Assembly: GCF_023634065.1 (NCBI RefSeq)
Contig: NZ_JALKCV010000016.1
Coordinates: 1 to 64,000 of the forward strand
Source of the DNA: Microbulbifer litoralis
Lineage (GTDB): Bacteria > Pseudomonadota > Gammaproteobacteria > Pseudomonadales > Cellvibrionaceae
DNA: 64,000 nt
Direction of reading: 5' to 3'
The notes below the pieces were generated by a model, which was not told the origin of the DNA, ran no database searches, and saw nothing but the letters and a program-made list of their open reading frames with translations. The position numbers and the translations under genes are program-made. Within the stretch, counting starts at the first letter, position 1, and every line of letters starts with the position of its first letter. Shown here piece by piece: positions 37,600-41,967 of the stretch.

Positions 37600-37737
37600 A
37601 TGACCATCAACGCACTGATTATCGCTCTGGCGCTGGCAATACTGCTCTATGTCGCAGTAGCGCTCGGCCCCCGCCCCAAACGGGTGCGGGTGCGCATCGA
37701 CGCCCCCCGCGACGGCCGCTACCGCCGCCGTCGCTAG
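37600..37737 (+). CDS. Putative 45-residue single-span membrane protein
   Basis: A short open frame with an excellent AAGGAG site 8 nt before its ATG. The product starts MTINALIIALALAILLYVAV, a single hydrophobic segment at about residues 4-23. A strongly basic tail (PRPKRVRVRI, ending YRRRR) would sit in the cytoplasm. It is divergent from murJ and lies upstream of the pds genes. Its TAG stop lies inside the first seven bases (CTAGTGG) of element M2. I do not recognise a family. The RBS and membrane-plus-basic design argue that it is real. Confidence 0.55.
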   Translation: MTINALIIALALAILLYVAVALGPRPKRVRVRIDAPRDGRYRRRR

Positions 37738-37897: not shown

Positions 37898-38059
37898 ACT
37901 GCAGCGCAACTGCCATTTTTCGCCATAATTGCGCTGCAATTTGCCCCCGGGGCGCCACGCCAGTGCCCCCTTGCGGTTGTTCAATGACTCTCGACCGGGC
38001 CGGAAACGCCACAACGGCACAGGCCCCAACCGAGAGACAAAACCGCAAGGAGAAGGACT
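37738..38059. other. Gene-free stretch upstream of pdsO
   Basis: Contains most of element M2, then a 10-bp inverted repeat (37901-37939) and about 120 bases of ordinary leader before the pdsO Shine-Dalgarno. No coding evidence. Confidence 0.6.
37901..37939 (+). promoter_or_regulatory. Operator-like inverted repeat upstream of pdsO
   Basis: TGCAGCGCAA and TTGCGCTGCA are perfect 10-bp arms separated by 19 bases. A CATAAT that could serve as -10 overlaps the right edge of the spacer. This is about 120 bases before pdsO, a plausible binding site for PdsR or another regulator. A simple hairpin is the alternative, but no T-run follows. Confidence 0.4.
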
Positions 38060-38755
38060 GTGAAAAAAGTACTGATGGCTGTGACCCTGGGTTCCCTGGT
38101 TGCCTCCGGCGTCCAGGCCAACGAACAAAACGAGTTTCGCGGATCGAAACTGACACCGGCCAAGCAGGCCACCGTATTCACCGGCGCCGCCGTCGCGGGC
38201 GCCGCAGTGGGCGGGCCGGTCGGATTCATCGCCGGAGCCCTCGGCGGAGCCTGGCTGGGCGAGCAGATTGAACAAGCAGAAGAGGCAGATATGCTGGCAT
38301 CACAACTGACCGACAGCCGCACGGAACTCAACGACCTGGCCCGGCAACTGGACGCGGCGCGCCTGTCGGCCAACGACGCCAACGAGCTGGCCCTCAACTC
38401 GCTGCAATTCCAGCTGCTGTTCACCACCGGCGACGATCAGTTGCAGGACGGTCAGCTGCACCAGGTGGCCACCCTGGCCGATTTTCTCAAGCGTCACCCG
38501 CAACTGCAGGTTGAACTGGAAGGCCGCGCCGATCCCCGCGGCAGCGACGGCTACAACAATGTGCTGTCCGACCAGCGCGCCCTGAGTGTGCAGCGCGCCC
38601 TGGAGAACTGCGGCATCGATCCCGCGCGTATCAGCCGCCGCGCCCTGGGGGCAAGCAAATCCCAAGCCCCGCGCGGTGATGTGGATGCCTACGCCATGGA
38701 GCGCCGGGTGGATATCCACTTCAACCTGCCCGAGTCCATGGCCGGCACTTTCTGA
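38060..38755 (+). CDS. pdsO: Sortase-system OmpA family protein PdsO
   Basis: A predicted envelope protein of 231 residues. Signal peptide (MKKVLMAVTLGSLVASGVQA), then a Gly/Ala-rich hydrophobic stretch (about 40-68, TGAAVAGAAVGGPVGFIAGA), a short coiled region, and an OmpA-like peptidoglycan-binding domain at about 115-225 (LEGRADPRGSDGYNNVLSDQ). This architecture, followed directly by the PdsR and PdsS genes, matches the OmpA component of the proteobacterial dedicated sortase system. Start codon GTG with AAGGAG upstream. No sortase gene is adjacent, so the label rests on domain order and neighbours. Confidence 0.8.
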   Translation: MKKVLMAVTLGSLVASGVQANEQNEFRGSKLTPAKQATVFTGAAVAGAAVGGPVGFIAGALGGAWLGEQIEQAEEADMLASQLTDSRTELNDLARQLDAARLSANDANELALNSLQFQLLFTTGDDQLQDGQLHQVATLADFLKRHPQLQVELEGRADPRGSDGYNNVLSDQRALSVQRALENCGIDPARISRRALGASKSQAPRGDVDAYAMERRVDIHFNLPESMAGTF

Positions 38756-38758
38756 ATC

Positions 38759-38794
38759 GGGACCCGGGACTCGGGACTCGGGACTCGGGACTCG
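38759..38794. repeat. GGGACTC heptamer tandem array, pdsO-pdsR gap
   Basis: About four exact GGGACTC units preceded by a GGGACCC variant, beginning four bases after the pdsO stop. Related arrays occur at 39659, 39790, 41936 and 46262. Confidence 0.8.
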
Positions 38795-38961
38795 CAGGAT
38801 CGGACTGCAAATCCGACCACCCAGACACCCTCCCGTGCAAAACCCTGTTGTACTTGCTGTATTTCGCGGGCACCGCAAATGCCCGCTTTTTTGGTTTATC
38901 CGCCCATTTGAGGCATGATTCAGCGCCAGCACACTCGTATAAAAATCACCCGGATCGCGCC

Positions 38962-39651
38962 ATGCCAGCCACCATCGCCATCGTCGAGGATGAAATCGCC
39001 ATCGCCGAAAACTACCGCGACGCCCTGCGCCGCAGCGGCTACACGGTCAACCTCTACAGCTCGCGCCCCACGGCCCTGGAGGCCTTCCAGCAGCGACTAC
39101 CGGACCTGGCAGTCATCGATGTGGGCCTCGGTGCCGAGGTGGAGGGCGGCTTCGAACTGTGCCGCGAGCTGCGCGCCATGGCGCCGAGCCTGCCAATCCT
39201 GTTCCTGACCGCGCGCGACTCGGAGCTGGATATCATTTCCGGCCTGCGCCTGGGCGCGGACGACTACCTGACCAAGGATATCTCCCTGCCGCACATGCAG
39301 GCGCGCATCAATGCCCTGCTGCGCCGGGTCAGCGTGCTGAAAGACCAGAGCGGGGACTCGGAAACCCTGACCCAGGGTGACCTGGACCTGGATATCTCCC
39401 GCCTGCACTGCCACTGGCGCGGTGAACATGTCGACCTGACGGTGACCGAATTCTGGATAGTGCACGCGCTGGCCAAGCGCCCCGGCCACGTAAAATCCCG
39501 CAGCCAACTGATGGAAGCGGCGCGCGTGGTGCTGGACGACAACACCATCACCTCCCACGTAAAGCGTATCCGGCGCAAGTTCCAGGCACTGGACGGCGAT
39601 TTCAATGCAATCGGCACGGCCTACGGGATGGGGTACCGGTGGCAGGTTTAG
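38962..39651 (+). CDS. pdsR: Dedicated sortase system response regulator PdsR
   Basis: An OmpR-type regulator of 229 residues. The receiver domain has acidic residues in IVEDE, phosphoacceptor Asp53 (AVIDVGLG), Thr in FLTARDSE and Lys in YLTKDISLP. A winged-helix DNA-binding domain follows (HVKSRSQLMEAARVVLDDNTI ending in GMGYRW). The frame extends upstream, but the ATG at 38962 gives the normal receiver start. Lying between PdsO and a large CBM9-like sensor kinase, it fits the response regulator of the dedicated sortase system. Confidence 0.82.
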   Translation: MPATIAIVEDEIAIAENYRDALRRSGYTVNLYSSRPTALEAFQQRLPDLAVIDVGLGAEVEGGFELCRELRAMAPSLPILFLTARDSELDIISGLRLGADDYLTKDISLPHMQARINALLRRVSVLKDQSGDSETLTQGDLDLDISRLHCHWRGEHVDLTVTEFWIVHALAKRPGHVKSRSQLMEAARVVLDDNTITSHVKRIRRKFQALDGDFNAIGTAYGMGYRWQV

Positions 39652-39658
39652 TGGAAAC

Positions 39659-39688
39659 GGGACCCGGAACTCGGGACTCGGGACTCGA
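39659..39688. repeat. GGGACTC heptamer array after pdsR
   Basis: Three to four GGGACTC-like units beginning eight bases after the pdsR stop. With the reverse-oriented array at 39790-39821 they form an inverted pair flanking about 100 bases. Confidence 0.75.
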
Positions 39689-39789
39689 TGTAGGCGGAGT
39701 CTCTGCCCATCGAAAAATGCCCTGCTTCTTCCATGATGGCGTCCTACCCCGGAGTCACCCGCTTTATGTGACTTGTCAACAGCGTGGTT

Positions 39790-39821
39790 CCGAGTCCCGT
39801 GCCCCGAGTCCCGAGTCCCGG
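39790..39821. repeat. GAGTCCC heptamer array before pdsS
   Basis: Reverse-orientation copy (GAGTCCC units) ending nine bases before the pdsS ATG, where the Shine-Dalgarno would be expected. It could pair with the array at 39659-39688. Confidence 0.75.
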
Positions 39822-39829
39822 CAGTTCCC

Positions 39830-41884
39830 ATGAAACTGCGCCGCCAACTGCTTTTCGTCAGCCTCGTCGCCCTGGCCCTGCCCTGGGCCGGCTGCCAGTA
39901 CCTGCGGCAGGTGGACAACGCCCTGGCACAGGGACAGATGCAGGCCCTGGAAGCCACAGCCAGTGCCGTGGCGGCGCGGCTGGCCAGTGCGCCGGAGTTG
40001 ATCGCCCCGGACCCCGAGCGCCTGGGCCGTCCCACAGGCGCCCAGCTGTATCTCAACCCACTGCCGCGGGCGCCGCAGCTGAACGGCTACGGCGACGAGT
40101 GGCGCAGCTGGAAGCTGCAACCCAGGTCGCTCGCCGACGACAGCGGCGAGACGCTGGGCCGGATTACCCTGGGCCGGCGCGGCGAGCAACTCTACCTGCT
40201 GCTGACCGTGGCGGATCGCACTCCCGCCTACCAGGATCCGCGCACCGGCCTGCTGGCCAGTGGCGACACCGTCGAACTCTATACCGGCCACCGCCGCTAT
40301 ACCCTGCCGGTGGCCAGCCAGGGCAACGCCCGCGCCCACTGGTACGACGCCCGCCGCGGCAAATACCAGCGCGAATTGCGCCTGCGCGGTCGCTGGACCA
40401 CCGCCCCGGACGGCTACCAGCTGGAGCTGGCGCTGCCCTACTCCCTGACCGGCGGCGAACTGGCCGTGAACATCCTCGACCGGCAGTTCAGCGACGGCGG
40501 CGACCCGGTCCGCAGCGCCGGCACCCTGCCCCTGGACGGCCGCCCCGGCAGGCTGGTGCAACCGCTGCCGGCGCTACAGGCGGAACTGGAGCACTTCGCG
40601 CGCCCGCACCTGCGCCTGGCGGTGGTCGACAAGGAGGGCTTTCCGATTGCCAGCAGCGGCCGGATAGACGCGGAGCCGATCGAAAACCCCGCTGACGACC
40701 CCTGGCTGCGCAACTGGATCTACCGCCGCCTGCTGGAGCGCCGGGCGCTGCCGCCGATGCCCGAGCGGGGGCTGCCGGAGGTGATGACCGCGCCCGCGGC
40801 AATTCCGGAGTACCGCGCCACCGTGGAACAGTGGTTCCGCACGCCGCTGGCGGGCCGCGTCGGCGCCGTCAGTGTGCCGGTCATTACCCGCGCGGACGAC
40901 ATCATCGAGCGGCCGCTGCTTGGGCGTGTGATCGCCCTGCAGTCCGGCGAGGCCCTGCAGTCCCTGACCGAATCCGCCGCCCACCGGCTGTGGCTGGTGA
41001 GCTGCGCCGCCGCCGGCATCGCCCTGCTGCTGTTGCTCGGCTACGCCAGTTGGCTGTCCTGGCGCATCCGCCGCCTGCACCGGGCGGCGCGCAACGCGGT
41101 GGACGCCAGCGGCAAACTGCGCGGCAATTTCCCGCACTCGCGCAGCGGCGACGAACTCGGCGCCCTGAATCGCGCCTTCGCCAGCCTGCTGGCGGAACTG
41201 GACCAGTACCACCACTACCTGCGCACCCTGGCCGGCAAACTGTCCCACGAGCTGCGCACGCCGCTGGCGGTGGTGCGCTCGTCGCTGGACAACCTGGCGG
41301 CCGGCGACCTGGACGAACACAACCGCCGCTACGCCGAGCGGGCCATGGAGGGCAGCGCACGGCTATCGGGCATCCTCAACAGCCTGTCCGCCGCCAGCCA
41401 CCTGGAGGCCAGCATCCAGAATGCGGAGAGGGAAGACTTCGACCTGGCGGACCTGCTGGAAGTGCTGGTGCAGAGCTACAGTGACGCGCAGCCGGATCAC
41501 CGCTTCGCACTGGACAAGCCCCGGGGCGAACTGCCGCTCCACGGCGCGCCGGAGTTGCTGGCACAGCTGCTGGACAAGCTGGTGGATAACGCCTGCAGCT
41601 TCGCGCCGGCGGGCAGCGAGATACGGCTGGCGGTGGTTGGCGGGGAAAACCGCTACCGGATCTCGGTCGAGAACGACGGGCCACGGTTGCCGGAGGGCTA
41701 CGCCCACAAGCTGTTCGACTCACTGGTTTCGGTACGGGACGACGGCGGCAGGGCCGGGCACCTGGGGCTCGGACTGCATATCGCGCGATTGATTGCCGAT
41801 TTCCACCGCGGCCGGCTGCATGCGGCCAACCGGGACGATGGTTCGGGAGTAATATTCACCCTGGAGCTCCCGAGAAAGATGTAG
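39830..41884 (+). CDS. pdsS: Dedicated sortase system sensor histidine kinase PdsS
   Basis: A membrane histidine kinase of 684 residues. TM1 near residues 6-25 (LLFVSLVALALPWAGCQYLR); an extracytoplasmic region beginning near residue 80 (PQLNGYGDEWRSW) resembles the CBM9/DOMON sensor of this kinase family; TM2 at about 387-411; HAMP-like linker; HisKA with His473 (GKLSHELRTPL); HATPase with LLDKLVDNACSFA and HLGLGLHIARLI. The N-terminal LPWAGCQYLR and the CBM9-like domain fit the sortase-system kinase. No Shine-Dalgarno is visible, because a heptamer array fills that position. The stop TAG is inside a GTAGGGTGCGCC palindrome. Confidence 0.83.
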   Translation: MKLRRQLLFVSLVALALPWAGCQYLRQVDNALAQGQMQALEATASAVAARLASAPELIAPDPERLGRPTGAQLYLNPLPRAPQLNGYGDEWRSWKLQPRSLADDSGETLGRITLGRRGEQLYLLLTVADRTPAYQDPRTGLLASGDTVELYTGHRRYTLPVASQGNARAHWYDARRGKYQRELRLRGRWTTAPDGYQLELALPYSLTGGELAVNILDRQFSDGGDPVRSAGTLPLDGRPGRLVQPLPALQAELEHFARPHLRLAVVDKEGFPIASSGRIDAEPIENPADDPWLRNWIYRRLLERRALPPMPERGLPEVMTAPAAIPEYRATVEQWFRTPLAGRVGAVSVPVITRADDIIERPLLGRVIALQSGEALQSLTESAAHRLWLVSCAAAGIALLLLLGYASWLSWRIRRLHRAARNAVDASGKLRGNFPHSRSGDELGALNRAFASLLAELDQYHHYLRTLAGKLSHELRTPLAVVRSSLDNLAAGDLDEHNRRYAERAMEGSARLSGILNSLSAASHLEASIQNAEREDFDLADLLEVLVQSYSDAQPDHRFALDKPRGELPLHGAPELLAQLLDKLVDNACSFAPAGSEIRLAVVGGENRYRISVENDGPRLPEGYAHKLFDSLVSVRDDGGRAGHLGLGLHIARLIADFHRGRLHAANRDDGSGVIFTLELPRKM

Positions 41885-41935: not shown

Positions 41936-41967
41936 CGAGCCCCGAGTCCCGAGTCCCGAGTCCCGCC
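41936..41967. repeat. GAGTCCC heptamer array before rpsT promoter
   Basis: Three exact GAGTCCC units plus a GAGCCCC variant, directly following the palindrome after pdsS and ending just upstream of the rpsT -35. Confidence 0.8.

Follow-up and report, generated by a model that had tools for sequence, protein, structure and literature searches.

A class GN sortase-system regulatory trio in Microbulbifer lies apart from the sortase-target pair that it probably controls

Introduction

What does a sortase-system regulator control when no sortase is encoded beside it? The question is raised by pdsO, pdsR and pdsS, three genes in a 64,000-nucleotide stretch of DNA from Microbulbifer litoralis (the window; bases 1-64000 of contig C16 in a genome, G000, of 4.99 Mb and 40 contigs). 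A preliminary description, made from the sequence alone, had taken them for the regulatory trio of a proteobacterial dedicated sortase system without a sortase or target gene, and had left two options: control of a distant sortase, or retention, with a new output, once the sortase had been lost. The sortase of such systems (model TIGR03784) is at present named class GN sortase by NCBI. Comparison of the locus with its relatives makes it quite probable that the trio is the regulatory part, still intact, of a class GN sortase system, that it has been parted from the sortase and its target and controls them in trans through a short operator-like repeat, and that the regulator survives where the sortase is lost.

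Results

Identity of the regulatory trio

In an NCBIfam search, PdsR scored 370.2 bits against TIGR03787, above the cut-off of 335.7, with CreB as the runner-up at 178.1 bits. The best match of PdsS, over its full length, was TIGR03785 (511.3 bits, cut-off 612.2; runner-up CreC, 140.2), and that of PdsO was TIGR03789 (101.4 bits, cut-off 152.2; runner-up YiaD, 76.8). PdsR is the only member of the trio to exceed its cut-off. The naming of the trio was thus borne out, and generic OmpA or two-component families did not score better. For PdsO, the score below cut-off looks like a property of the clade, because none of 51 searched genomes of the taxonomic family reached the TIGR03789 cut-off, including G055, where the sortase is linked. 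As a marker of PdsO, the TIGR03789 score proved useless on its own: all 51 genomes matched at E<=1e-15, many of them through the OmpA part alone.

Residues D53 of PdsR and H473 and N587 of PdsS, which belong to the phosphorylation and ATP sites, were invariant in all 82 aligned homologues, as were the other catalytic residues checked except for one receiver threonine (80/82). In the presumed recognition segment of PdsR, 13 of 17 positions were at least 95% conserved. The nearest named match of PdsR is from M. donghaiensis (91% identity), and the genome groups with Microbulbifer. The genes stand in the order murJ, a 45-codon open reading frame (ORF), pdsO, pdsR, pdsS and rpsT, murJ on the minus strand and the ORF and the trio on the plus strand; the three pds reading frames are open and complete at the coordinates in Table 1. 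The three genes form a genuine and intact set of class GN sortase-type regulators.

Sortase and target in the same genome

The reported lack of a sortase and target holds for the window, but not for the genome. The genome-wide search with TIGR03784 and TIGR03788 that the preliminary description had proposed found an adjacent pair on contig C2. The genome encodes one TIGR03784 sortase (195.9 bits, cut-off 158.25), and adjoining it is a TIGR03788 target (740.8 bits, cut-off 551.65), the sole match to that model in the genome at E<=0.001. A pair overlooked within the window was rejected as a candidate, all matches to both models being on C2; the trio and the pair lie on different contigs. In the target, VIT and VWA domains are followed at the C-terminal end by a YPGTA motif, a hydrophobic stretch and a basic tail. 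Directly upstream of it is a gene for a GDPD-family phosphodiesterase.

A second pdsS-like kinase beside the sortase was likewise rejected. Only one full-length pdsS match was present in the genome, the 16 other kinase matches reached at most 65.5 bits, and the one nearest to the sortase on C2 lay about 21 kb off and scored 25 bits. Other genes beside the sortase encode a 1978-residue protein with a choice-of-anchor U domain (L003:11741-17677, minus strand) and a protein that has an OmpA domain and weakly matches an OmpA barrel (L003:10617-11786, minus strand).

An operator-like repeat shared by pdsO and the target

Alignment of 30 Microbulbifer target upstream regions, out of 46 with a target above cut-off, revealed a single strongly conserved block with the consensus GCCACAATTC GCCAYAATT, a 10-bp direct repeat (GCCAYAATTC-GCCAYAATT) that we refer to as the box. 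The strict pattern, GCCAYWWTTYGCCAYWWTT, was matched at 17 or more of its 19 positions before all 30 targets and at 18 or more before 27. Upstream of pdsO the box occurred in 13 of 13 named Microbulbifer loci, whether the strict or a looser pattern was applied. In the window, the site before pdsO was the only one with at least 17/19 matches; in 15 simulations of first-order Markov sequence, 0.07 sites per 64 kb were expected at 17/19. Matches upstream of murJ in 11 of the 13 loci fall within the interval that murJ shares with pdsO, and we interpret them as the pdsO box read in the direction of the divergent gene, position-by-position agreement being presumed. Neither pdsR nor rpsT was preceded by a box in any of the 13 loci, and autoregulation of PdsR in Microbulbifer, considered as a candidate, thus left no sign. 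The reversed pattern, used as a control, gave no match in any locus set; the random-window control may overlap true boxes, which overstates its background.

The box was also present where sortase and target adjoin the regulator. With the loose pattern at 17/19 or better, it lay between target and pdsR in 46 of 51 linked loci (37 with the strict pattern), namely 29 of 33 named loci outside the fetched family set and, within that set, 17 of 18. This count omits L087, whose interval exceeds 1.5 kb and holds a 19/19 site, L072, with a target fragment below 300 bits, and L025, L028, L035 and L040, which repeat family genomes. Among genomes of other genera in which the pair is split from the regulators, a box preceded the remote target in 15 of 17 (loose pattern, at least 17/19); this set leaves out G063 and G084, and the piece from G111 is without the target. 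At pdsO, it was found at 7 of 9 genes inside the family.

The M. litoralis genome contains three perfect boxes, before pdsO, the target and the GDPD gene, and two more sites with one mismatch. We scanned 40 genomes of our own choice, 32 with PdsR and 8 without. Perfect boxes, 32 in all, occurred in 20 of the 32 PdsR-positive genomes and in none of the 8 PdsR-negative ones (Fisher p 0.003). With up to one mismatch, the PdsR-negative genomes had 10 sites versus 13 for the reversed pattern. A sortase-target stretch that is accompanied by a different regulator (G134, see below) contained no box, its best score being 13. PdsR is the likely ligand of the box, because perfect boxes were confined to PdsR-positive genomes, the G134 stretch lacks one, and the presumed recognition segment is conserved. 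Control of the distant sortase in trans is supported because the box stands before the target, before pdsO and in the target-pdsR intervals of linked loci. For M. litoralis itself, the first option of the preliminary description is therefore the best reading, the C2 pair carrying the same operator-like repeat as pdsO.

Arrangement in Microbulbifer and in the family

A search of 48 Microbulbifer genomes found the sortase in 46, a target above cut-off in 46 and PdsR in 47; sortase and PdsR were both held by 46. All three were missing from genome G033 (80% complete), whereas G013 (100% complete) had PdsR and only a VIT-VWA match below cut-off. In 19 genomes with both on one contig, sortase and PdsR were 168 kb to 2.2 Mb apart by the shorter way round (168-240 kb in 14, 1.4-2.2 Mb in 5). 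The order murJ-pdsO-pdsR-pdsS-rpsT was kept in 13 of 13 named Microbulbifer loci, and in none of them did a sortase or target lie beside the trio (fetched flanks up to 10 kb). The separation of the regulators from the sortase is a genus-wide trait of Microbulbifer. The place of the pair varies within the genus, a purC match preceding it in 15 of 29 loci.

We sampled 120 family genomes, 24 of them Microbulbifer: PdsR (E<=1e-80) was found in 86, the sortase (E<=1e-30) in 62 and both in 61, G134 alone having the sortase only. The two lay about 3 kb apart in 17 of the 37 non-genus genomes with both, and not so in 20; closer search of G087 found an adjacent sortase missed at E 1e-30, which adds one more linked genome. 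Among 60 of the 62 non-genus PdsR loci (G063 and G111, on short contigs, were omitted), sortase and target adjoined pdsR in 18, the pair being divergent from pdsRS. In 7 of these 18, from genera g9 and g22, rpsT still follows pdsS as in Microbulbifer. The named loci L028, L035 and L040, contigs or kin of three of these 7, also have rpsT after pdsS. This is read most simply as an ancestral position of the entire set beside rpsT, from which the target-sortase pair then moved off.

Two unusual genomes may be described here. In G134 (L290), the fetched stretch with the sortase-target cassette also contains a different two-component regulator, which scored 176 bits on a PdsR profile versus 354-391 for the 60 family loci; a natural regulator swap is possible. 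In G119 (L297, L189), the target match falls in separate frames, at a distance of about 100 kb from pdsR, and an 18/19 box and a short ORF resembling a target start remain beside pdsR, the latter seen by eye only and without a tblastn match.

Relatives without a sortase

PdsR-positive genomes without a sortase were searched again at E 0.01. No sortase above cut-off was found in 25 PdsR-bearing family genomes (24 non-genus genomes and G013); among them, G092 had a weak match (75.6 bits) and G080 a fragment of 19.7 bits interrupted by stops. None of the 25 had a target above cut-off, and lower VIT-VWA matches were seen in G013, G052, G053, G059 and G067. On a FastTree phylogeny of concatenated PdsR and PdsS (81 tips, L024 being removed as a duplicate of G013), sortase presence and absence required at least 12 changes and formed 15 sortase-less clades, with many deep nodes poorly supported. 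The second option, a regulator retained with a new output once the sortase was lost, fails for M. litoralis and fits many of these relatives. One is Microbulbifer guangxiensis L3 (G013, locus L279), which has retained an 18/19 box and a 133-codon target stub; 56 residues at the N terminus of the stub are 55% identical to the M. litoralis target (tblastn, E 4e-16), and there is no sortase match in the genome. Locus L272 contains 34 sortase-like residues (tblastn, E 0.003), which is suggestive only. The target-like stubs of L279 and L272 gave no match to the target profile.

In 10 of 16 sortase-less genomes scanned (G013, G053, G070, G071, G073, G092, G100, G102, G113 and G127), a box with at most one mismatch lay 98-258 bp before the PdsO match. 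Boxes preceded other genes as well. A perfect box stood before a gene for a protein of about 490 residues, apparently with a membrane helix at its N terminus, in G053, G059, G069, G127, G129 and the split genome G078; the protein matched Pfam in 0 of the 6, NCBIfam in 0 of 2 tried and PDB sequences in 0 of 1 tried. A bacterial alpha-2-macroglobulin gene was preceded by a box in G073 (perfect) and G100 (one mismatch), and a D-Ala-D-Ala ligase gene divergent from pdsR (assigned by Pfam) in G092, with a similar gene in G072. Full-length PdsO matches (profile start <=48) were found in at least 22 of the 25 sortase-less PdsR-positive genomes and, among the matches listed, in none of 21 genomes without PdsR. 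Because sortase-less genomes with PdsR carry boxes before pdsO and other genes, the genome distribution and the box support the view that PdsRS is not dedicated to the sortase.

The periplasmic sensor of PdsS

The CBM9-like sensor proposed for PdsS was recovered at the level of the family. The periplasmic part of the window protein alone gave no Pfam match. Among 55 sensor regions of the family, 9 matched CBM9_1 at E<=0.1, and other members matched GAF or Cache models. A profile built from the 55 sequences matched solved CBM9-type xylanase modules (7nwn, E 3.4e-6; 1i82, E 0.0057). These matches support a CBM9-like sensor at family level, with sugar binding as a putative function.

Other features of the locus

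The positions of the features are collected in Table 1. A stem with a T run lies after pdsO, so pdsO may form a transcription unit of its own, separate from pdsRS; the scan for this stem/T-run pattern found 5 terminator-type sites in the region versus 2.9 expected. No Rfam element or tRNA was matched in the window. The 45-codon ORF between murJ and pdsO (37600-37737, plus strand) encodes a hydrophobic stretch and a basic tail; it had a tblastn match in 13 of 13 named Microbulbifer loci, partial in some, and no NCBIfam match. Short GGGACTC/GAGTCCC repeats were noticed at 38766-38793, 39673-39686, 39806-39819 and 41944-41964. Exact 14-base matches numbered 7 in the window, counting overlaps, and were confined to the gaps within this gene group and to the region before rpsT; the repeats are inverted around the pdsR-pdsS gap.

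Table 1. Positions of the box, the regulatory genes and associated features
Feature	Position	Strand	Remarks
Predicted PdsR box GCCATTTTTCGCCATAATT, direct repeat in tandem (period 10 bp)	37912..37930	+	Upstream of pdsO; 19/19 to GCCAYWWTTYRYCAYWWTT
pdsO, Gly-rich N-terminal stretch and OmpA domain, GTG start	38060..38755	+	TIGR03789 best match, below cut-off; Pfam OmpA (PF00691)
Stem followed by T run in the pdsO-pdsR gap, possible intrinsic terminator	38866..38886	+	Pattern scan only
pdsR, OmpR/PhoB-type response regulator	38962..39651	+	TIGR03787 above cut-off; Pfam receiver and winged-helix domains
pdsS, membrane histidine kinase with CBM9-like periplasmic sensor	39830..41884	+	TIGR03785 best match, below cut-off; Pfam HAMP, HisKA, HATPase_c
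Family of proteins of about 490 residues behind a perfect box	L262, L263, L265, L266, L267, L269		Six genomes

Discussion

The following course of events is proposed. The CBM9-like, carbohydrate-binding-type domain of PdsS would sense a periplasmic signal, and PdsS would phosphorylate PdsR, as the conserved residues suggest. PdsR would then bind the tandem repeat, whose conservation points to an operator, and turn on the neighbouring pdsO and, in trans, the distant target-sortase operon together with the GDPD-family gene just upstream of it. On relocation the target-sortase pair would have retained its box, and PdsRS would outlast repeated loss of the sortase with pdsO and lineage-specific outputs.

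Several observations weigh against this proposal. PdsO and PdsS fall short of their model cut-offs. The loose pattern was obtained by opening two positions after the linked loci had been seen, and the strict one lowers the linked loci to 27 of 33 (outside the family set) and 10 of 18 (inside it). Even the loose pattern missed L052, L056, L067, L088 and L177, and among the split genomes G058 (score 14) and G119, with its target in separate frames, were misses. Outside the family only 8 of 19 pdsO genes had the box. A perfect box was absent from 12 of the 32 PdsR-positive genomes, and with up to one mismatch these genomes had 106 sites versus 50 for the reversed pattern. Further perfect sites were present in G092 (one each on contigs C5, C17 and C18, with no clear gene behind that on C5) and in G069 (C1:5348741). 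The genomes are related, so the box counts are not independent.

Other explanations were weighed against the same data. The repeat might belong to another broadly conserved regulator of pdsO and the sortase operon, with PdsR acting otherwise. The proposed link between box and PdsR comes from sequence comparison, and the missing box before pdsR in the 13 Microbulbifer loci would suit this explanation; the restriction of perfect boxes to PdsR-positive genomes, the high conservation of the presumed recognition segment and the absence of a box from the sole cassette with a different regulator speak against it, as does the fit of an OmpR-type dimer to a tandem direct repeat of 10-bp period. We regard this explanation as improbable. 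Still less probable is an orphan regulator, in which the trio would be a leftover of sortase loss that now drives other genes only. It agrees with the 13 Microbulbifer loci that have no sortase or target nearby, and it holds for G013 and the 24 other family genomes, but the M. litoralis genome itself has an above-cut-off sortase and target with a perfect box.

That PdsRS is a generic CreBC-like system, next to an equally generic OmpA lipoprotein and without a particular connection to sortases, is hardly credible. The scores of PdsS and PdsO below their cut-offs and the many genomes in which the pair lives without a sortase would allow it; it is largely refuted by the score margins (TIGR03787 at twice the CreB score, TIGR03785 at 511 bits against 140 for CreC) and by the linkage of sortase and target in 18 of 60 non-genus loci, and the box is common to the trio and the sortase operon.

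Beyond control in trans, we lean towards a wider interpretation, in which PdsRS is an envelope-sensing system that has pdsO as its lasting partner in the family. Together with its VIT-VWA target, the class GN sortase would be one detachable output among several, along with the alpha-2-macroglobulin, the protein of about 490 residues, the GDPD and the D-Ala-D-Ala ligase, and such outputs would be recruited or dropped as one conserved operator is gained and lost. That a "dedicated" regulator would not be dedicated is the part that specialists would not expect. For annotation, a two-component regulator labelled "dedicated sortase system" need not be accompanied by a sortase. Through the predicted regulon the sortase is connected with a periplasmic sensor of the sugar type, with pdsO and, among relatives, with alpha-2-macroglobulin, and with a predicted operator and a defined regulon the control and purpose of class GN sortases become directly testable.

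Comparison with known systems

Passages of a 2023 paper (PMC10581121) call class GN sortases poorly described and their role in Gram-negative organisms unknown. Among the papers listed by our literature search, none dealt with the PdsR regulator or its operator. Haft and Varghese (2011; PMC3237569) described, in the passages available, the TIGR03784 Gram-negative sortase and an adjacent target with vault/inter-alpha-trypsin-inhibitor homology. The M. litoralis pair agrees with theirs in sortase model, target type and gene adjacency; regulation, the operator, the separation of the regulators and sortase-less genomes are not treated in those passages. Measured against the class GN, or proteobacterial dedicated, sortase system as defined by TIGR03784, TIGR03788, TIGR03787, TIGR03785 and TIGR03789, all five models are matched and sortase and target are adjacent; what differs is that the Microbulbifer regulators stand apart from the pair and that PdsO and PdsS score below cut-off. 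With CreBC and other OmpR-PhoB two-component systems, for which tandem direct-repeat operators are typical, PdsRS shares the domain architecture, CreB and CreC being the next best matches. It differs from them in the CBM9-like sensor of PdsS and in forming separate families with far higher scores.

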